DNA from: Deltaproteobacteria bacterium Ga0077550
GTDB lineage: Bacteria > Myxococcota_A > Polyangia > Nannocystales > Nannocystaceae
Direction: 5' to 3'
Length of the DNA: 64,000 nucleotides
NCBI GenBank assembly: GCA_001464385.1
Contig: LNFB01000238.1
Span: 1 to 64,000, forward strand
Numbering within the stretch: position 1 is the stretch's first letter; each line of letters opens with the position of its first letter. Below, piece after piece: positions 46,523 through 56,182 of the stretch. The position numbers and the translations under genes are program-made. Under the pieces are notes generated by a model. It saw nothing but the letters and a program-made list of their open reading frames with translations, did no database searches and was not told the origin of the DNA.

Positions 46523-47568
46523 GTGGCCAAGCAGTGCATCGGTCTGGACATCGGCTCGAGCGCGATCAAGCTCGTGCAGCTCAAGCCCGCGGGCCGCGTG
46601 CTCGCGCTGCAGAACTTCGGCATCGAGCCGGTTCCGCCGCAAACCATCGTCGACGGCGTGATCCTCAACCACAGCGGGTTGGTGGACGCGATCAAGAACC
46701 TCACGCGCCGCATCCACCTCAAGGGGAAGGCGATGGCGCTGGCGGTGTCCGGCAACAGCGTGATCATCAAGCGCCTGACCATCCCCGCGATGGAGGGCGC
46801 CGCGCTCGACGAGCAGATGGAGTGGGAGGTCCGCCAGAACATCCCGTTCTCGCGCGATGACGTCGTCGTCGACTACGAGGTGCTGGTCAAGCAGACGCCG
46901 ACCGGCCAGATGGAGGTCCTGCTCGTCGCGGCCAAGCGCGAGATCGTGGCCCAGTACCAGCAAGTGGTCCGCGACGCCGGCTTCCAGCCGGTGATCGTCG
47001 ATGCCGCGGCCCTCGCGCTGCAGAACTCCGTCGAGCTCGGCATCGGCTTCGCCCCGGGCGACACCATCGCGATCATCAACGTCGGCGCGACGTACTCGAC
47101 GCTGTCGATCGTCTCGGGCGGTCGGCCGTCGTTCAACCGCGACCTCGGCACGGGCGGCAACACCTACACCGAGGCCATCCAGCGCCAGCTGGGCGTGAGC
47201 CTCGACGGTGCCGAGGCCTACAAGGTCGGCGGAGCGTTCGCGGCCGCGGGCGCGATGGCCGACGTCGTGCCGCAGGAGGTCCACCGCATCCTCTGGCAGG
47301 TCTCGGAACAGGTCGCCGAGGAGTTCCAGCGCTCGCTCGACTTCTACATGAACGACGCCATCGATGCGCGGCTGTCGCGCATCTACCTGAGCGGCGGCTC
47401 GTGCCTGGTGCCGCAGCTGCCCAAGGCGATCCAGGATCGCTCGCGCATCCCGGTCGAGATCATCAACCCATTTGCGCGAGTGGTGGTCGACACGCGACGA
47501 TTCGAAACGCGCCGGTGGCCACCGTCGCGTTCGGACTCGCGGCACGCCGCGCGGGAGATTCCGAATGA
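46523..47568 (+). pseudogene. pilM: type IV pilus assembly ATPase-like protein PilM, frameshifted near the end
   Basis: PilM is an actin-like cytoplasmic protein that binds the PilN N-terminus in the pilus alignment complex. From GTG 46523, with AAGGA five bases upstream, the frame gives GLDIGSSAIKLVQLK, the mid-domain SGNSVIIKRLTIPAM and the C-terminal IYLSGGSCLVPQLPKAI. After about 47504 the frame becomes Arg/Pro-rich. The normal end (APVATVAFGLAARRAGD) is in another frame from 47509, ending in TGA at 47566-47568 that overlaps the pilN ATG as ATGA. One base, or a few codons plus one base, is missing. An assembly error is likely, since a functional pilus locus surrounds it. Confidence 0.85.
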
Positions 47569-48272
47569 TCCGCATCAACCTCGCCCCGACCAAGCGCAAG
47601 CGCGCCACGGCCAGCGCTGGCCCGGCGCAGCCACGCGGTCAAGTCGCCGCGGGCTCGAACAGCGGCGCCGCGACCTTCGTGCTCATGCTCCTGGTGTGGG
47701 GCGGACTCGCCGGCGCCGGCTGGTACCTGCTCGGCATCGAGGACGACGCCGCGATGGCCGTGCGCGCCAAGGCGGCCGGCATCAGCAAGGAGGTCAACGA
47801 GATCAAGGCCGTCATCGACGAGGCCGGACTCAAGGCCCGCGAAGAAGAGATCAAGCGGCAAGAGGTCGCCATCGAGAAGCTCAAGTCCAAGCAGCGGACC
47901 CCCGTGTTCGTGATGTACGAGCTGGCGATGATGCTCACCGACGCCCAGCTCGGCGGCGGCGTCACGATCGACGAAGAGAAGTACAAGAAGAACAAGGCCG
48001 ACGACCCCCAGAGCGAGATCAACGAGCGCTGGGATCCCTCGGGCCTTTGGCTGAGCAGCGTCGAGGAGGCCGACGGTCGCCTGACGATCGAAGGCTCGGC
48101 CCGCGACGCCGCCGACCTCTCCGAGTTCACCCGCCGCCTGCGCGCCAGCGTGTGGTTCGGCGAAATCACCCACCCGAACTACGAACGCGCCGACAGCAAG
48201 TCGCGCGATCGCGAGGACACCCAGCGGCACCTGACGTGGAAGCTCGACGTCGCGGTCCGCAGGTGGAACTGA
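47565..48272 (+). CDS. pilN: type IV pilus assembly protein PilN
   Basis: A 235-residue bitopic inner-membrane protein. The N-terminus MIRINLAPTKRKRA is the conserved PilM-binding INL motif, one membrane span lies at about residues 35-56, then a coiled coil and a ferredoxin-like periplasmic domain (GRLTIEGSARDAADLSEFTRRL). It forms the alignment subcomplex with PilO. The ATG overlaps the restored pilM stop, and pilO starts 12 bases after its stop. Confidence 0.9.
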   Translation: MIRINLAPTKRKRATASAGPAQPRGQVAAGSNSGAATFVLMLLVWGGLAGAGWYLLGIEDDAAMAVRAKAAGISKEVNEIKAVIDEAGLKAREEEIKRQEVAIEKLKSKQRTPVFVMYELAMMLTDAQLGGGVTIDEEKYKKNKADDPQSEINERWDPSGLWLSSVEEADGRLTIEGSARDAADLSEFTRRLRASVWFGEITHPNYERADSKSRDREDTQRHLTWKLDVAVRRWN

Positions 48273-48284
48273 GGAGCGCCGAAC

Positions 48285-48929
48285 GTGTTCGACGGACTGG
48301 GCAAACTCCCGATCTGGCAGCGACTGCTGCTGTTCGTTGTCGTGGCCGCGGCGATCGTCGGCGGCTGGTACTACTTCTTCTACCTCGACGCCGTCGCGGC
48401 CCGGACCAGCGCCGAGGCGGCCGTCGTCGCCGCGCAGAAGGAGCTCGACGCGGCGAAGACCAAGCGCGACAACTTCGACGCCGAGAAGCAGAAGGTCGAG
48501 GAGGCCGAGAAGCGCCTCGACGCCCAGCGCGAGGTGCTGCCGCTCAACGCGTCGACCGTCGACAACCTGATGCAGACGTTCCAGCAGCAATCGCGGCTGG
48601 TCGGCATGACCGTGGAGGCCTGGACCAACGAGCCCGAGGAGTTCGAGGACTTCTACGCCCGCATGCCGATCCGCGTGCGCGCGACGGGGACCTGGACGCA
48701 GGTCGGCGAGTTCTTCCGCCGCGTCTCGGAGCTCAAGCGCATCGTGAGCGTCGACCGGCTCTCGCTGAAGTCGACGGTCAAGCCCACGAAGGACGGCGAG
48801 AAACCCGACGAGCACCCCGGCCTCGAGGTCGAGTTCGAGGCCGCGACGTACCGGTTCCTGACCGACGAGGAGCGGGCGGCCGCGGCCGCCAAGGGCCCCG
48901 CTGCGAAGAAGGGCAGGCGTAAGAAGTGA
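48285..48929 (+). CDS. pilO: type IV pilus assembly protein PilO
   Basis: A 214-residue bitopic protein with a membrane span at about residues 10-30, a coiled coil at about 30-90 (AQKELDAAKTKRDNFDAEKQ) and a ferredoxin-like periplasmic domain with MPIRVRATGTWTQVGEFFRRVSEL, the PilO signature. It pairs with PilN and contacts PilP. A basic/Ala-rich tail (KGPAAKKGRRKK) ends it. The stop overlaps the pilP start as GTGA. Confidence 0.9.
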   Translation: MFDGLGKLPIWQRLLLFVVVAAAIVGGWYYFFYLDAVAARTSAEAAVVAAQKELDAAKTKRDNFDAEKQKVEEAEKRLDAQREVLPLNASTVDNLMQTFQQQSRLVGMTVEAWTNEPEEFEDFYARMPIRVRATGTWTQVGEFFRRVSELKRIVSVDRLSLKSTVKPTKDGEKPDEHPGLEVEFEAATYRFLTDEERAAAAAKGPAAKKGRRKK

Positions 48930-49534
48930 AGACGTCGAACTGTTCAGCTCTGCTGTGGCTCACCCTCGGCCTCGCGGCCTGCGTCGACGACGGCGGGGCG
49001 GAGGTCAGCGCCAAGCGCGGCGCCCCGCCGCCGAAGGCCGGTGGAGCCGCCGGCGCCCCGGCCAAGGCCGCTCCGGCGACGCCCGGCGCGGGGACGCCGG
49101 CCGCCGGTGCCGCGGAGGAAGGTGAGGTGCTGCCCTCGCAGCTGCCCGCCCGTCCACCCGTGGCGCTCGACGCGAAGTCGTTCCAGCGCCGCCGCGATCC
49201 CTTCCTCAGCTTCGTCGCCAGCGAGGTCGTCGTGCCCGAGCCCGACCGGCCCCGGGCCGAGCGCAAGGTCGAGATGCAGCAGTACGCCTTCGAGGACCTC
49301 AAGCTCGTCGCCATCGTCAACGCCGGGCGCGGCATGAAGCCGCGGGCGCTGTTCGTCGCCTCGGATCGCAAGAGCCACTCGATCAAGCAGGGCGACTACT
49401 TCTCCAGTGCCGAGGTGCTCCTCGCCGCGGTCAACCGCGACTACGTCGAGATCGAGGTGGTCGACGACGACCTCGCCAGCAGCCTCAACCTCCAGCGCGG
49501 GGAGCGACGCGCCATTTATTTGCGAAACGAATGA
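48926..49534 (+). CDS. pilP: type IV pilus lipoprotein PilP
   Basis: A 202-residue inner-membrane lipoprotein: signal peptide ending LGLAAC (Cys about residue 19), an Ala/Pro-rich disordered linker to about residue 75, then the beta-sandwich domain (QQYAFEDLKLVAIVNAG, ALFVASDRKSHSIKQGDYF, VNRDYVEIEVVDDD). PilP links PilNO to the PilQ secretin. The GTG start overlaps the pilO stop. Length is normal. Confidence 0.9.
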   Translation: MKTSNCSALLWLTLGLAACVDDGGAEVSAKRGAPPPKAGGAAGAPAKAAPATPGAGTPAAGAAEEGEVLPSQLPARPPVALDAKSFQRRRDPFLSFVASEVVVPEPDRPRAERKVEMQQYAFEDLKLVAIVNAGRGMKPRALFVASDRKSHSIKQGDYFSSAEVLLAAVNRDYVEIEVVDDDLASSLNLQRGERRAIYLRNE

Positions 49535-49535
49535 G

Positions 49536-49555
49536 GTGGGAGCGATCCTCCCCAC
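49536..49555 (+). promoter_or_regulatory. hairpin covering the pilQ ribosome binding site
   Basis: GTGGGAG (49536-49542) can pair with CTCCCCAC (49548-49555) around a 5-base loop with one bulged C, ending at the base before the pilQ ATG. The GGGAG that would serve as the binding site is within the stem. Confidence 0.4.
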
Positions 49556-52500
49556 ATGCGCTTCGGTTCTGCACCCCGTACCGGAGTGCGTCGTGTGACG
49601 CCCCTGGGCCTGATGGCCGCTCCGCTGTCGCTGCTGCTCGCGCTGCGACCTGATGTCTCCCTCGCGGCGAGCCCGACAGCACCCGAATTCGCGGCCCTCC
49701 AGGCCCAGGCGGCCAGCGCTTCGGCGCCCAACCGCATCGACGGCCTCACGATCGAGGAACTCGACGACGGCACCACGACCCTGCGGCTGGTCGGCTCGGC
49801 GAAGCCGACCTTCAGCGTCTACCGCCTGCAGGATCCCGACCGCCTCGTGGTCGACATCGCCGGCAGCGAGCGCGGCAAGGTCGTCCCGCACCTGCCGCTC
49901 GACAACTGGGCGTGCGGCCGGCTGTCGGTCGACGACGTCACCGAGCAGGACGCGATGATGGTCCGGCTGGTGGTCGAGCTCAAGCGCGACGCCAGCTACA
50001 TCGTGGTGCCCGACGGCGAGAACCTGGTCGTCACCGTGACGCCGCGCCAGGTGCCGCCCGAGGCGTACTTCGCCCGCAAGAGCGCCTCGTCGCGCCGCGC
50101 GGAGATCGAGGCCGCCGAGCAGGCCGCCGCGCGCACGCTCGCCGACGCCAAGGACGCCCAGCGTAGCGCGAAGCACCACACCGCCGCGGCCGCCCGCGAG
50201 ATCGCCGACGCGCAGCAGCGCCTCGCCGATGCGCAGGAGGCCGAGTCGCGGGCCCGCACCGCCGAGAAGCGCGCCCTCGCGGCCCAGGCCCGCGCGCGCT
50301 CGGGCGTCGATGCGCGTCAGGGTCACCGCCTCGCGTCGCGTCGCGCCCTGAGACGCGCGGAGGCCGAGCTCGCCGCGGCCGAGAAGGCCCGCAAGCACGC
50401 CGAGTCCCAGGCCAAGGTCGCCGACGCAGCCCTCGCCAAGGCCCGCGCCGAGGCCCAGGCCGATCGCGCCGCCGCCGGAGACGCGCGCCGATCCGCAGAG
50501 GCGATGAAGGTCGCCGCGTCGCGCAAGCTCGAGGACGCCGAGGTCACCGCGCAGCAGCGGCTCGCGGCGGCCACCGAGCGCGCGACCGAGGTGCAGTCCG
50601 AGGCCGAGCGCGCGGCGGCGAAGAAGCTCGCCGCGGCGAAATCCCAGGCCAGCCTCACCGAGGCCGCGGCGCAGCGCAAGCTCGCCGACGCGCAGCGGGC
50701 GAAGGCCGACGCCGATCGGACCGAGGCCGCCGCCCGCGACAAGCTCGCGGCCGCCCAGCAGGCCGCCGCCGCCGCGCAGCGCGACGCGGAGGCGCTGCGC
50801 GCGAAGGCGGGTGCCGCGGACGCGAAGGCGGACGCGAAGCTCGCGGACGCGCAGGGCAAGCTCGGCGCCGCCGAGGGCAAGCTCGTCGCCGCGCAGCGCG
50901 AGCTCGACGCCGCCGCCGCGCAGGCGAAGGCGGCGCGGTCCAAGCTCGAGGGGGCCCAGAAGGCCGCCGAGGCCAAGCTCGCCGAGGCCGAGCAGACCCG
51001 CGCCGAGGCCGACCGCATCCTCGCGAGCGCCAAGCTCGAGGCCAAGGCCAAGCTGGCCGCCGCGCAGAAGACCGCCGACGAGACGGTCGCCGCCGCACAG
51101 CGTCGCGCCGACGCCCAGGCCTCCGCCAAGCTCGACGCGGCGGCACGCGACGCCGAGGCCCTGGTCGCCGGCGCCCGCCGCAAGGCCGACGCCGCGGTCG
51201 AGGCCCGCATGCGCGAGGCCGAGGCCGCTGCGCGCGACAAGATCGCCGAGGCCGAGCGCAAGGCCCGGTCGATCGCGCAGAAGGAGCTCGCGGCCGCCGA
51301 GCAGGAGGCCGAGCGCAAGCTCGCCGACGCGAAGAAGGAATCCAAGCGGCGCGCGGACGCCGAGGTGGCGGCGGCACGCAAGCAGGCCGTGGCCGACGCG
51401 GAGCGGGAGCTCGCGGCGCTGCGCAAGCGGGCCGAGCAGGAGACCGCGACCCAGGTCGCGGCGGCGCGCAAGCAGGCCGAGACAGAGGCTGCCCGTGATC
51501 TCGCCGCGGCGCGCGAGCGCGCGACCGCGGAGGCCGACAAGCAGGTCTCCGGGGCCAAGCAGCGCGCGACGGCCCTCGAGCGCCAGGCTGCGGACAAGCT
51601 CGCGGCGGCGGACCAGACCCTGGCGGCGGCCAAGCGCGAGCGGCAGTCCGCGGCATCGGCGAAGGCCGAGGCGGTGGCGCTGCGCGAGCAGGCCGAGTCG
51701 GCGTTGGCCAAGGCCCGCGCCGCGATGGACGACGCGGCGACCGAGAAGAAGGCCGCGATCGCGGCGCGCAAGGACGCCGATCGCGATCTCGTCGCGGCCA
51801 AGGCGGAGGCCTCGCGCGCCCGCAAGCGCGGCGAGATGACCGAACAGATGCAGGCCCGCGTCGACGCGGCCGAGCGCGCCCGCGACTCGGCCCTCGCGCG
51901 GCAGAAGCAGGCCGAGCAGGATCTGGCGAAGCTGAGCGGAGATCGCGAGCAGCTCGCGACCAAGCTCGCGGCCGAGCGCAAGTCCTCCGAGAAGCTCGCC
52001 CAGGCCGTGGACGATCGCGAACGCGAGCTCGTCGCCGCGCGCAAGCAGGTGGATGACGCGCGCGGCAAGCTGGCCGAGCTCGGCGGGCGCGCCACGCCCG
52101 AGGAGTTCGCCCGCGCGCAGGCCGAGACCCGAAAGGTCCAGGCGACCGCGACCGTGCTCGAGAAGCAGGTCGGTCGACTGCGCGGCGACGCCGACGAGGC
52201 CAAGGCCCGGGCGAGCGCCGCCGAGCGCAAGCTGCAGGAGCTCGAGGCCCAGGGCGCGCGACGCAAGAAGCTCGAGGCCGCCCGCGACGAGGCCGAGGCC
52301 GCACAGAAGGCGGCGAAGGCGGCGAAGGCCGAGCACCACGACGCCGACGTGCGGCTCGCCGCGCTCAACCGCGATCTCGCCGCGCGCAAGTCGGAGCTCG
52401 AGCAGCTCACGGCGGCGCGGGCCGAGCTCGAGACCCAGGGCGAGGCGCTGCGGGCCAAGAACGCCGCGGCGAAGCAGGCGCTCGCGCAGGCCGAGCAGAA

Positions 52501-54511
52501 GCTCACCACGCTCGAGAACAAGCTCGCCGGCGAGCGCAGCCGCCTCGGCGCGGTCGAGGACGAGATCCGTCGCGCACAGAGCCGCCTCGAGACCCGCGTC
52601 GAGCAGGTCGCCGCGCAGCGCAGCGCCCCCGCCGGGCAGCCCAAGGTGGCCCCGAAGGCGAGCGAGGACGCCGCGAAGGACGACGCGGCGCCGGCCGAGC
52701 CCACGCTCGCCGAGGCGAAGCCGCCCAAGCCGCCCAAGCCCCGCGGCGCCGCGACCAAGGTCCGCGATGTCCGCTTCGAGGACGATCGCGACGAGTCGCG
52801 GGTCATCATCGCGTTCGACGGCCCGATCTCGTACACCGGCAACACGCTCACGCCGACGATCCAGGTGCTGCAGCTCGACGGCGCGCGCATGCCCGGCGCG
52901 CTCGAGCGCAGCCTCGACGCGACCGCGTACGACGGGCCGATCAAGCTGGTGACCTCGTTCGTCGAGGGCGAGGACGCCAAGGTCGTGGTGTCGACTGCGA
53001 AGGCCTCGAAGCCGCGGCTCGAGGAGCGGCCCGGCGAGCTGGTGTGGCACTTCCCGCGCGTCGGCAAGGGCAAGCCCAGCGAGGCGGTCAGCATCGCCGG
53101 CACCAAGGTCGGCGGCTACGCGAGCGCGCCCCCGGCCGCCGCGATGGCGCCGGTTGGGGCCAGCGACGACGGCGTGGTCATGGACAGCCGTCCGACCCGC
53201 TCGCGCGGGCGCTGGCGCGGCGAGCGGATCGACATCGAGCTCCAGGACGCGCCGATCAAGGACGTGCTCCTGCTGTTCTCCGACATCGGCCGCGTCAACA
53301 TCATCGCGGGTCGCAACGTCGAGGGCAGCGTCACGATGAAGCTGAACTCGGTGCCGTGGGATCAGGCGCTCGACATCATCCTGCGCTCGCTGAACCTCGG
53401 CTCCAGCCGCGACGGCAACGTCATCCGGGTCGCCACGGTCGAGGACCTCGAGAACGAGCGGCGTGCTGCCATCGAGCGCGCCGCGGCCCGCGTCCAGCAG
53501 AAGCCGCTCGAGACCAAGCTGCTGCCGGTCTCGTACGCGACCGTCGACGAGATGGTGCCCAAGGTCCAGAGCGTGCTGAGCTCGCGAGGTTCGGTCACCC
53601 CCGACACCCGCACCAACACGCTCATCATCATGGACGTGTCGGAGAACATCGCGCTGGCCGAGAGCCTGGTCCAGCAGCTCGACACCCAGACGCCGCAGGT
53701 GCTCATCGAGGCCCGCATCGTCGAGGCGCGCACGAGCTTCGCCCGCCAGCTCGGCGTGCAGTGGGGCTTCGACTTCATCGCGAGCCCGGGCACCGGCAAC
53801 CCGACCGGGCTGCTGTTCCCCAACTCGGTCGGCGTCGGTGGCGGCGCGACCGGTTCGCCCGCCGATCGTCGCGGCCTGATCCTCCCCGGCGCGGCGGCGA
53901 GCCCCAACTACGCCGTCGACCTCCCGGTGCCGGTCGGCACCGGGACCGGTGGTGCGATCGGCTTCTCGTTCGGCAGCATCAGCGGCAACCTCAACACCAA
54001 CCTGCGTTTGTCGGCGTCGGAGAGCACCGGCGAGATCCGCATCATCAGCGCCCCGAAGATCGTCACGCTCGACAACAGCCAGGCGCAGATCGAGCAGGGC
54101 GTGCAGATCCCGATCTCGCAGGTCAGTGCGCAAGGCGTCAACACGCGGTTCGTCCGCGCGACCTTGGGGCTCACGGTCACGCCCCACGTGACCAACGAGG
54201 GGGCCATCCTGCTGGACGTCGTCGTCGAGAAGAACGAGGCCGACTTCGTCAACACGGGCGCCCGAGGCGACCCGACGATCCTCACCAAGCAGGCGCAGAG
54301 CCGCATGCTGATCAACGACAACGACACGGCGGTCATCGGCGGCATCTACACCCGCAGCAAGGCCGTCAACTACGACAAGATCCCATGGATCGCCGACGTG
54401 CCGATCATCGGGTGGTTCTTCAAGCAGAAGTCCGAGGCGGACGTCCGCTCCGAGGTCCTGATCTTCCTGACGCCGAAGATCGTCAACCGCGCGAGCAGCA
54501 TCGGCGGTTAG
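49556..54511 (+). CDS. pilQ: type IV pilus secretin PilQ with giant coiled-coil insertion
   Basis: Outer-membrane secretin through which the pilus passes. Order: signal peptide (cleavage near VSLAA, about residue 38), AMIN domain 1 (about 58-164, peptidoglycan binding), an Ala/Lys/Glu/Arg-rich coiled coil (about 170-1020), AMIN domain 2 (about 1064-1168), secretin N0/STN domain (IDIELQDAPIKDVLLLFSDI, about 1225-1300), N1 domain (about 1319-1395) and the secretin pore (IRIISAPKIVTLDNSQAQIEQG, PWIADVPIIGWFFK). At 1651 residues it is almost twice the roughly 900 of Myxococcus PilQ. The insertion has no proline for about 675 residues. The frame is continuous. aroK follows 10 bases later. Confidence 0.93.
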   Translation: MRFGSAPRTGVRRVTPLGLMAAPLSLLLALRPDVSLAASPTAPEFAALQAQAASASAPNRIDGLTIEELDDGTTTLRLVGSAKPTFSVYRLQDPDRLVVDIAGSERGKVVPHLPLDNWACGRLSVDDVTEQDAMMVRLVVELKRDASYIVVPDGENLVVTVTPRQVPPEAYFARKSASSRRAEIEAAEQAAARTLADAKDAQRSAKHHTAAAAREIADAQQRLADAQEAESRARTAEKRALAAQARARSGVDARQGHRLASRRALRRAEAELAAAEKARKHAESQAKVADAALAKARAEAQADRAAAGDARRSAEAMKVAASRKLEDAEVTAQQRLAAATERATEVQSEAERAAAKKLAAAKSQASLTEAAAQRKLADAQRAKADADRTEAAARDKLAAAQQAAAAAQRDAEALRAKAGAADAKADAKLADAQGKLGAAEGKLVAAQRELDAAAAQAKAARSKLEGAQKAAEAKLAEAEQTRAEADRILASAKLEAKAKLAAAQKTADETVAAAQRRADAQASAKLDAAARDAEALVAGARRKADAAVEARMREAEAAARDKIAEAERKARSIAQKELAAAEQEAERKLADAKKESKRRADAEVAAARKQAVADAERELAALRKRAEQETATQVAAARKQAETEAARDLAAARERATAEADKQVSGAKQRATALERQAADKLAAADQTLAAAKRERQSAASAKAEAVALREQAESALAKARAAMDDAATEKKAAIAARKDADRDLVAAKAEASRARKRGEMTEQMQARVDAAERARDSALARQKQAEQDLAKLSGDREQLATKLAAERKSSEKLAQAVDDRERELVAARKQVDDARGKLAELGGRATPEEFARAQAETRKVQATATVLEKQVGRLRGDADEAKARASAAERKLQELEAQGARRKKLEAARDEAEAAQKAAKAAKAEHHDADVRLAALNRDLAARKSELEQLTAARAELETQGEALRAKNAAAKQALAQAEQKLTTLENKLAGERSRLGAVEDEIRRAQSRLETRVEQVAAQRSAPAGQPKVAPKASEDAAKDDAAPAEPTLAEAKPPKPPKPRGAATKVRDVRFEDDRDESRVIIAFDGPISYTGNTLTPTIQVLQLDGARMPGALERSLDATAYDGPIKLVTSFVEGEDAKVVVSTAKASKPRLEERPGELVWHFPRVGKGKPSEAVSIAGTKVGGYASAPPAAAMAPVGASDDGVVMDSRPTRSRGRWRGERIDIELQDAPIKDVLLLFSDIGRVNIIAGRNVEGSVTMKLNSVPWDQALDIILRSLNLGSSRDGNVIRVATVEDLENERRAAIERAAARVQQKPLETKLLPVSYATVDEMVPKVQSVLSSRGSVTPDTRTNTLIIMDVSENIALAESLVQQLDTQTPQVLIEARIVEARTSFARQLGVQWGFDFIASPGTGNPTGLLFPNSVGVGGGATGSPADRRGLILPGAAASPNYAVDLPVPVGTGTGGAIGFSFGSISGNLNTNLRLSASESTGEIRIISAPKIVTLDNSQAQIEQGVQIPISQVSAQGVNTRFVRATLGLTVTPHVTNEGAILLDVVVEKNEADFVNTGARGDPTILTKQAQSRMLINDNDTAVIGGIYTRSKAVNYDKIPWIADVPIIGWFFKQKSEADVRSEVLIFLTPKIVNRASSIGG

Positions 54512-54521
54512 GACCTCGGCC

Positions 54522-55061
54522 ATGGACATGACCAGGCCGGTGTTCCTGGTCGGCATGATGGGCAGCGGCAAGACCACGGTGGGGCTGCGCCTCGCCGCGG
54601 CCTGCGGCCGAGTGTTCTGCGACCTCGACGGGCGCATCGAGCGGCTGTACGGCCGCTCTGTCGCCGCGGTCTTCGCCGCCGACGGCGAGGCGGGCTTCCG
54701 GGCGGCCGAGCGCGACGCGCTGCGATCCCTGCTCGACGAGCCCGGCTTCGGCGCCCGCGGCTGCGTCGTCGCCACGGGCGGCGGCGTGGTGCTCGCGGCC
54801 GAGCATCGCGCGATGATGCGGGCGGTGGGCACCGTGATCCTCCTCGACGTCGGCGTCGACGCGCTCGTGCGCCGACTTGTCGACGACGCCGCGACCCGGC
54901 CGCTGCTCGCCGACGCCGACCCGCGCGCGCGCCTCGAGTCGCTGTGGTCGGCGCGGCGCGACGCGTACCGCGATGGTGCGCTCGTCGTACCGGCCGAGGA
55001 CGCGCCCGACGACGTCGTCGCGCGGATCGTCGCGCACCTGCGGGGCCGGGGCGAGGCATGA
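54522..55061 (+). CDS. aroK: shikimate kinase
   Basis: A 179-residue kinase that makes shikimate 3-phosphate. Walker A GMMGSGKTTVGLRLA, the substrate Asp in FCDLDGRIE, Arg in FRAAERDAL, the ATGGGVVL motif and the lid region RPLLADADPRARL are present. The order pilMNOPQ-aroK-aroB is a long-known conserved arrangement in proteobacteria. The stop overlaps the aroB start as ATGA. Confidence 0.95.
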   Translation: MDMTRPVFLVGMMGSGKTTVGLRLAAACGRVFCDLDGRIERLYGRSVAAVFAADGEAGFRAAERDALRSLLDEPGFGARGCVVATGGGVVLAAEHRAMMRAVGTVILLDVGVDALVRRLVDDAATRPLLADADPRARLESLWSARRDAYRDGALVVPAEDAPDDVVARIVAHLRGRGEA

Positions 55062-56182
55062 CCGCCATCGTCTCGATCCAGGTCCCGGTGCCGCAGGCGG
55101 GCCCGCGCGGCTACCCGGTGCGCCTCGGGTCGGGCGTCGTCGCCGAGCTCCCCTCGCACCTGCGCCGCGCCGCCCCGAGGGCCCGGCGCGTCGGCATCCT
55201 CAGCGACGAGACCGTGTTCGCGCACCACGGCGACGCCTTGCTCGCGATCGTGCGCGACGCGGGCCTCGAGCCGGTCGTCCACGTCATCCCGCCGGGCGAG
55301 GCCAGCAAGACGGCGGCGGTGCTGGGCGGCTGCCTCGACGCGTGGGTCGCAGGCGGCCTCGCCCGCAGCGACGCGGCGGTCGCGTTCGGCGGCGGCGTCG
55401 TCGGCGATCTCGGTGGCCTCGCCGCGCACCTCTACATGCGCGGCATCCCGATCGTGCAGTGCCCCACGTCGCTGCTCGCCCAGGTCGACGCGTCGACGGG
55501 GGGCAAGGTCGCGATCGATCACGGCGCCGCGAAGAACCTCATCGGCGCGTTCGAATTCCCCGCGGCGGTGCTCGTGGATCCGCGGTGGCTCGCGACCCTG
55601 CCGGCGCACGAGCTCGCCGGCGGCGCCGCCGAGATGGTGAAGCACGCGCTGTTGTTCTCCCCCGAGCACCTCGACGCGCTGCTGCGGCACGCGCCGCTGG
55701 TCGCCGACACCGAGCCCGAGGTGCTCGCGGGCCTGGTCGCGAGCTCGGTCGCGCTCAAGGCCGCGTGCGTCGCCGCCGATCCGTTCGAGCGCGCGCCGGC
55801 CGGCCGGGTGCTGCTCAACCTCGGGCACACCGTCGGCCACGCGATCGAGGCCGCGTCCGACTACGCCCTCGGGCACGGCCAGGCGGTGGCGTTGGGCCTG
55901 GTCGCGGCGGCTCGACTCTCGCGGGCGCAGGGGCTCGCCGCCCCCGCGCTCATCGGCAGGGTCACCGCGGTGCTCACGGCGCTCGGGCTACCGACCGACC
56001 TCGAGGCGTGGCTGGTCGGCCCTCGCCTCGAGCGCGTCCGCGCGGCGCTCGGCCACGACAAGAAGCGCAGCGGCGACGCGCTCACCTACATCGCGCTGCG
56101 CGATGTCGGGGCGCCGCAGGTCCTGTCGCTCGGGGTCGACGCAATTCTGACCGCGATCGCGGCGGGCGACGCGGGCTCCTAG
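55058..56182 (+). CDS. aroB: 3-dehydroquinate synthase
   Basis: A 374-residue NAD- and metal-dependent enzyme converting DAHP to 3-dehydroquinate. Seen: GGGVVGDLGGLAAHLYMRGI (NAD binding), PTSLLAQVDASTGGKVAIDH, the metal ligands Glu in ELAGGAAEMVKHAL and His in LNLGHTVGHAIEAAS and ALGHGQAVALG. Length is normal. It overlaps aroK by four bases, so the two steps are translationally coupled. Confidence 0.96.
   Translation: MTAIVSIQVPVPQAGPRGYPVRLGSGVVAELPSHLRRAAPRARRVGILSDETVFAHHGDALLAIVRDAGLEPVVHVIPPGEASKTAAVLGGCLDAWVAGGLARSDAAVAFGGGVVGDLGGLAAHLYMRGIPIVQCPTSLLAQVDASTGGKVAIDHGAAKNLIGAFEFPAAVLVDPRWLATLPAHELAGGAAEMVKHALLFSPEHLDALLRHAPLVADTEPEVLAGLVASSVALKAACVAADPFERAPAGRVLLNLGHTVGHAIEAASDYALGHGQAVALGLVAAARLSRAQGLAAPALIGRVTAVLTALGLPTDLEAWLVGPRLERVRAALGHDKKRSGDALTYIALRDVGAPQVLSLGVDAILTAIAAGDAGS

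Follow-up and report, generated by a model that had tools for sequence, protein, structure and literature searches.

A conserved coiled-coil insert between the AMIN domains of the type IV pilus secretin PilQ

The window, by which we mean the whole stretch of 64,000 nucleotides that was analyzed, contains a pilQ gene that raises the question of what about 850 residues of predicted coiled coil are doing in the middle of a type IV pilus secretin. Type IV pili pull with forces of >100 pN (PMC3724824). There is still debate about how the outer-membrane ring is held in place in the wall. What is known of the structure of myxobacterial PilQ comes from M. xanthus, whose protein lacks the architecture that, in this survey, most of the sampled families have.

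The pilQ gene and its insert

The gene (49556..54511, + strand, as are all features below unless stated) is complete and encodes a protein of 1651 residues with the order AMIN, coil, AMIN, N0, N1, secretin, in which Pfam detects all parts but the coil. A putative Sec-type N-terminal signal peptide, recognized by sequence inspection alone (49556..49669, aa ~1 to 38), precedes the first AMIN domain (AMIN1; 49751..50038), which is distal, past the coil, and was identified by PF11741 (28.8 bits), by our own HMM (89 bits) and by Foldseek matches to the AMIN domains of AmiC and PilQ. The insert between the two AMIN domains spans aa ~169 to 1025, and its coiled-coil part lies at 50078..52597 (aa ~175 to 1014), with AlphaFold helices at aa 177 to 1023. 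It is followed by a flexible Pro/Ala-rich linker (52598..52759; prolines at aa 1025 to 1062, pLDDT <50) and by the second AMIN domain (AMIN2; 52760..53050; PF11741, 33 bits), which adjoins the secretin part, made of the STN/N0 (53294..53431; PF07660), Secretin_N/N1 (53513..53698; PF03958) and secretin barrel domains (54017..54484, aa 1488 to 1643; PF00263, 3.8e-41). Both AMIN domains pass the Pfam cut-off, and the distance between them is 907 residues. The single open frame with AMIN1, insert, AMIN2 and secretin that the first-pass annotation had described is thus borne out.

A search of the PDB returned PilQ, not GspD, as the closest solved relative, and the half of the protein from AMIN2 to the secretin domain aligns throughout with M. 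xanthus PilQ (3jc8, E 8e-154). The long gap between the AMIN domains does not change this assignment, because the short linker of other PilQs is a matter of variation and does not define the family. The protein is therefore a true PilQ, i.e., a T4aP secretin, with a new, large and conserved architectural variation. Two further secretins encoded in the same genome, one of them a GspD beside a gspE-like gene, have no coil, which indicates that the trait belongs to PilQ.

Directly upstream of pilQ, in the usual order, are pilM (46523..47560), pilN (47565..48272), pilO (48285..48929) and a putative pilP (48926..49534; 202 aa), the last assigned from cluster position and sequence. PilN and PilO, of 235 and 214 residues, match the corresponding M. 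xanthus proteins of PDB 3jc8 (225 and 205 residues); their ordinary lengths argue that the rest of the pilus machine spans a normal periplasm, with no hint of a wider one. Around 47490-47520 the reading frame of pilM is lost at the C-terminal end, and near its 3′ end the gene is 19 nt shorter than that of the same-genus locus L113, whose alignment runs through. The broken frame is either a draft-assembly error or a real mutation.

On the opposite strand, an open frame of 2310 residues (48944-55876, −) faces pilP-pilQ and beyond. Despite this antisense frame, it is the + frame that codes for protein under purifying selection, as shown by a GC3 of 0.92 to 0.99 throughout the insert and by 136, 115 and 418 coil substitutions at codon positions 1, 2 and 3, respectively, between the window and its congener L113. 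By the codon-position evidence in pilQ, the frame on the − strand is a non-coding by-product of high GC3, and the same two observations rule out that the insert is an antisense or chance open frame.

Ala, Arg, Glu, Lys, Gln and Asp make up 77% of aa 166 to 1030. These residues are dominant as claimed earlier, although the wording "almost only" was slightly overstated, Leu, Ser, Thr and Val being the next commonest. The proline-free run, first put at about 675 residues, measures 679 (between P168 and P848). The heptad-like coiled coil read in the first pass was confirmed by a COILS-type predictor, with which 815 residues of the insert exceeded P = 0.5 but no residue of the AMIN domains or the secretin did, the scores being for comparative use. 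The periodicity of hydrophobic residues in the window coil is strongest at 3.56 residues, with a z of 5.5 relative to shuffled sequences, and in relatives it is strongest at 3.50 to 3.54 (z up to 20). Nearly all relatives show a heptad signal above shuffles, except L170 and L184, which are the richest in Ala, and L219, which is short. Coil Ala content runs from 4% to 48% between families. In the low-GC family f7 the coil is Lys/Leu-rich with 4 to 11% Ala and still has one of the strongest heptad signals (period 3.50, z 12 to 20), showing that the helix is conserved and not the composition. GC-driven drift toward Ala is ruled out by the coil retained in f7 with its period of 3.5, and a single alpha-helix without a hydrophobic seam is ruled out by the heptad signal in nearly all coils, L170 and L184 excepted.

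Distribution and history of the coil

A search of 98 relatives and a sample of the phylum, followed by extraction of the loci, yielded 135 PilQ loci. Both AMIN domains with a coil between them were found in 91, another 12 were cut at the 5′ end and have a coil, 28 are coil-less, and 4 were too short to be classified. The order AMIN1-coil-AMIN2-secretin is identical in 91 of 91 coil-bearing PilQs with both AMIN domains in the main survey, and relatives fetched afterwards have the same architecture. Rather than being absent from all relatives, as an artefact would be, the coil occurs at the same place in three congeners and in 28 of the 42 sampled families, with three single-contig genomes (G104, G172 and G233) among the carriers. 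In the majority of the families sampled, PilQ usually has this form; the model species M. xanthus is an exception. Outside the sampled phylum, none of 73 PilQ homologues, almost all of them belonging to other phyla, reaches 100 coil residues.

Between AMIN domains, coil-bearing PilQs have 240 to 2033 residues (median 682), an about eight-fold spread, compared with linkers of 22 to 40 residues in most coil-less relatives with two AMIN domains. Within the window's own family, f1, the distance ranges from 388 to 972. The longest PilQ, L187, has 2830 residues. Its coil (protein 184-2216) and those of L195 and L188, of 1690 to 2033 residues, contain internal duplications with repeat offsets of about 14 to 21, 200 to 230 and 319 residues. 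At G220:C37:11955-13232, a PilQ open frame of 2215 residues is listed with one internal TAA. Eleven genomes (G006, G011, G014, G016, G019, G022 and G024 to G028), belonging to three genera of the window's family and several of them nearly closed (10.9 to 13.2 Mb), yielded no PilQ-like secretin at E<=1e-40 and may have lost the T4aP.

In a secretin-domain tree (IQ-TREE, 112 rows), every coil-bearing PilQ falls on one side of a branch with 100/99 support. On the other side are M. xanthus, three Deltaproteobacteria MAGs, families f25, f26, f36 and f57, and the outgroup L041. The presence of the coil requires 6 changes on the tree (6 to 7 in bootstraps) versus 25 for shuffled labels. As such counts give no polarity by themselves, we used coil-less outgroups to polarize them; on this basis, one ancient gain followed by about five losses is the simplest and best-fitting history. 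The phylum-wide and ancient nature of the insert had not been anticipated in the first pass. The coil-less f5 loci L153, L154 and L156, as well as L155 and L171, also lack AMIN1, which leaves them one AMIN domain, except L155, in which none was found. Fission of the gene in coil-less lineages is ruled out, as the pilMNOPQ stretch of the inspected coil-less loci contains no separate AMIN-coil gene.

Register, domain conservation and predicted fold

Clean coil indels were scored only in disjoint sister pairs, i.e., pairs that share no sequence. Of 13 such indels, 7 are multiples of 7 residues (binomial p 0.0009 against 1/7), and 2 more are of 11 and 22 residues. This preference for multiples of 7 or 11 points to selection on the register of the coil while its length drifts freely. 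Large indels on one side that no matching change offsets, such as +204 residues in L195 and +63 at 0.35 in L114, argue against a strictly paired, fixed-register hairpin, and a single midpoint hairpin is ruled out by the lack of mirror-image indels. Of the two AMIN domains, AMIN1 is the better conserved in 72 to 76% of coil-bearing pairs versus 31 to 44% of coil-less pairs with two AMIN domains, the pairs being phylogenetically non-independent. That AMIN1 is the more conserved only in coil-bearing PilQs suggests a function for this domain past the coil.

As a straight helix the insert would measure 127 nm; the arithmetic of the first-pass annotation is correct, and so is the need it saw for the coil to fold back, bundle or lie sideways. 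Among those options, AlphaFold predicts a folded-back bundle with partly conserved glycine turns. The monomer model of aa 38 to 1215, built on a 15-row alignment (mean pLDDT 75.9, pTM 0.36), has helices of 77, 161, 175, 156, 80, 51 and 121 residues separated by turns of 4 to 5 residues, with disordered linkers before and after AMIN2. Gly or Pro occurs in 9 of 14 family members at the predicted turn at aa 254 to 257 (50315..50326), in 12 of 14 at aa 758 to 762 (KRG-EMT; 51827..51841), and in 9 of 14 at aa 843 to 847 (GGRAT-P848; 52082..52096), against a background of 1.9 on average (95th percentile, 7). The turn at aa 598 to 601 has no Gly/Pro support among the 14 relatives. In the model of a full-length f30 PilQ, the helices are of 63, 132 and 73 residues, and within f30 the first turn falls mostly, the second partly, on glycine.

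Rods of 132 to 175 residues correspond to about 20 to 26 nm, a size range shared by the two models despite a three-fold difference in total length; both are of monomers with pTM of only 0.36 and 0.27, from a program prone to folding long helices back. Foldseek matched the AMIN domain to AmiC and PilQ, and the coil weakly to antiparallel hairpins of the Smc/MukB type. We consider that the coil probably folds back into antiparallel rods of roughly 20 to 26 nm by means of glycine turns.

Possible roles and comparison with known systems

In the mechanism that we propose, a giant coiled-coil arm would stand where a PilQ normally has a short linker joining the first AMIN domain to the last; it would be anchored to AMIN2 and the secretin through the flexible Pro/Ala linker and carry AMIN1 at its other end. 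Unfolded, such arms would reach up to ~270 nm; folding back through glycine turns would let them fit a normal periplasm. Solved PilQ structures are rings of 12 to 15 subunits, so that one arm per subunit would give each machine at least a dozen, all tipped with AMIN1. By holding the cell wall at many points beyond the footprint of the ring, the arms would spread the retraction load and help fix the machine at the pole. The arm itself is well supported; its mechanical role we infer, and the oligomeric geometry, the grip on peptidoglycan and the spreading of load should be read in the same conditional sense.

In M. xanthus, the AMIN domains of PilQ bind peptidoglycan at the septum and the poles, and both multimerization and the recruitment and assembly at the pole depend on them (PMC10653833), which favors a wall-gripping arm; by analogy, AMIN1 of coil-bearing PilQs is a putative peptidoglycan-binding domain. 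Conversely, the T4aP of M. xanthus functions with no arm, and about five lineages that lost the arm still have PilQ. On balance, a folded arm on each PilQ subunit that presents a peptidoglycan-binding AMIN domain and grips the wall at many points is in our judgment an even call. More tentatively, the T4aP of most of the phylum might be "armed", the secretin ring gripping peptidoglycan by arms tens of nm long that act like outriggers; with ring-bound AMIN domains and TsaP as the other two, this would be a third way of anchoring, one that the model organism lacks. Of the three functions put forward in the first pass (spacer, collar and docking site), a spacer in the sense of a fixed-length ruler is disfavored by the about eight-fold variation in length, as PilN and PilO are of ordinary size.

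Alternatively, the arms might pack together into a bundle that surrounds the vestibule and stiffens the ring like a cage, a periplasmic collar in which AMIN1 would sit near AMIN2 and reach would be irrelevant. The constant predicted rod size in the two models fits this idea, as do the f30 helices, of which 63 + 73 residues nearly equal 132 and could bring both coil ends near the middle of a rod of ~20 nm. We nevertheless regard a collar as unlikely, since lengths of 240 to 2033 residues, and of 388 to 972 within f1 alone, exceed what a fitted cage should tolerate, and the coil indels are one-sided.

We think it quite unlikely that the insert is an ancient, loosely constrained spacer whose length changes by tandem duplication with little effect, and which is helical only as protection against misfolding or cutting. 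The internal duplications in L187, L195 and L188, a 90-nt tandem repeat inside the window coil, the wide length range and the about five losses are what such a linker would predict. However, the indels retain a heptad or hendecad register, selection at the codon level is purifying, the distal AMIN1 is extra conserved, and the coil is retained across at least 28 families.

A platform for docking a lineage-specific partner, e.g., a pilotin, a TsaP-like protein or a motility-regulation protein, would agree with the local conservation of the glycine turns, and long periplasmic coils are often scaffolds. This seems improbable to us, as no conserved surface patch was found beyond the heptad Ala/Leu and the turns, the Ala content shifts widely between families, and the pilMNOPQ stretch, the one covered, holds no extra conserved gene. 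Lastly, although the window genome is a 400-contig draft with a frameshifted pilM, an assembly or frame artefact is virtually inconceivable and is ruled out by the in-frame insert in many other, independent genomes across the genus, the family and the phylum, the three single-contig ones included.

In line with the first-pass claim of novelty, we found no description of a coil-bearing PilQ or other secretin in the open-access literature that was searched. The published AMIN survey (PMC10653833) does not mention a coil insert, nor does the available part of a survey of myxobacterial T4P (PMC6060248). For the wall-gripping arm that we favor, the natural eight-fold length range makes the anchoring role directly testable by comparison or deletion, and arms of such mass should show by cryo-tomography.

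Domain II of TolA is an Ala/Lys/Glu-rich periplasmic helix like the coil, but TolA is energized at the inner membrane and has neither a secretin nor an AMIN domain. Among secretins, M. xanthus PilQ (PDB 3jc8/3jc9, 901 residues; the sequence that we used agrees with 3jc8 except for one V/I difference) resembles the window protein in having AMIN domains followed by N0, N1 and secretin. However, it has three AMIN domains with short flexible linkers instead of two around a giant coil, only 29 of its residues exceed a coil P of 0.5 (maximum, 0.70), and it lies outside the coil-bearing clade. The PilQ proteins of Pseudomonas and Neisseria (PDB 6ve2 and 4av2) have two AMIN domains and a secretin like the window protein, but a short linker between the AMIN domains.

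SlpA/OmpM of Deinococcus and other bacteria (PMC9388160) combines an outer-membrane barrel, a long periplasmic coil and a wall-binding end, as the window PilQ would. Its coil, a trimeric stalk of 28 nm, matches an enlarged periplasm, and the protein is unrelated to PilQ, being an abundant connector with an SLH domain and a trimeric porin barrel that does not extrude a pilus (PMC9388160). Pfam detected neither an SLH domain nor a porin-type barrel in the window PilQ. What the two proteins share is a coil with an outer-membrane barrel on one side and a wall-binding domain on the other, a resemblance solely in how they would work.
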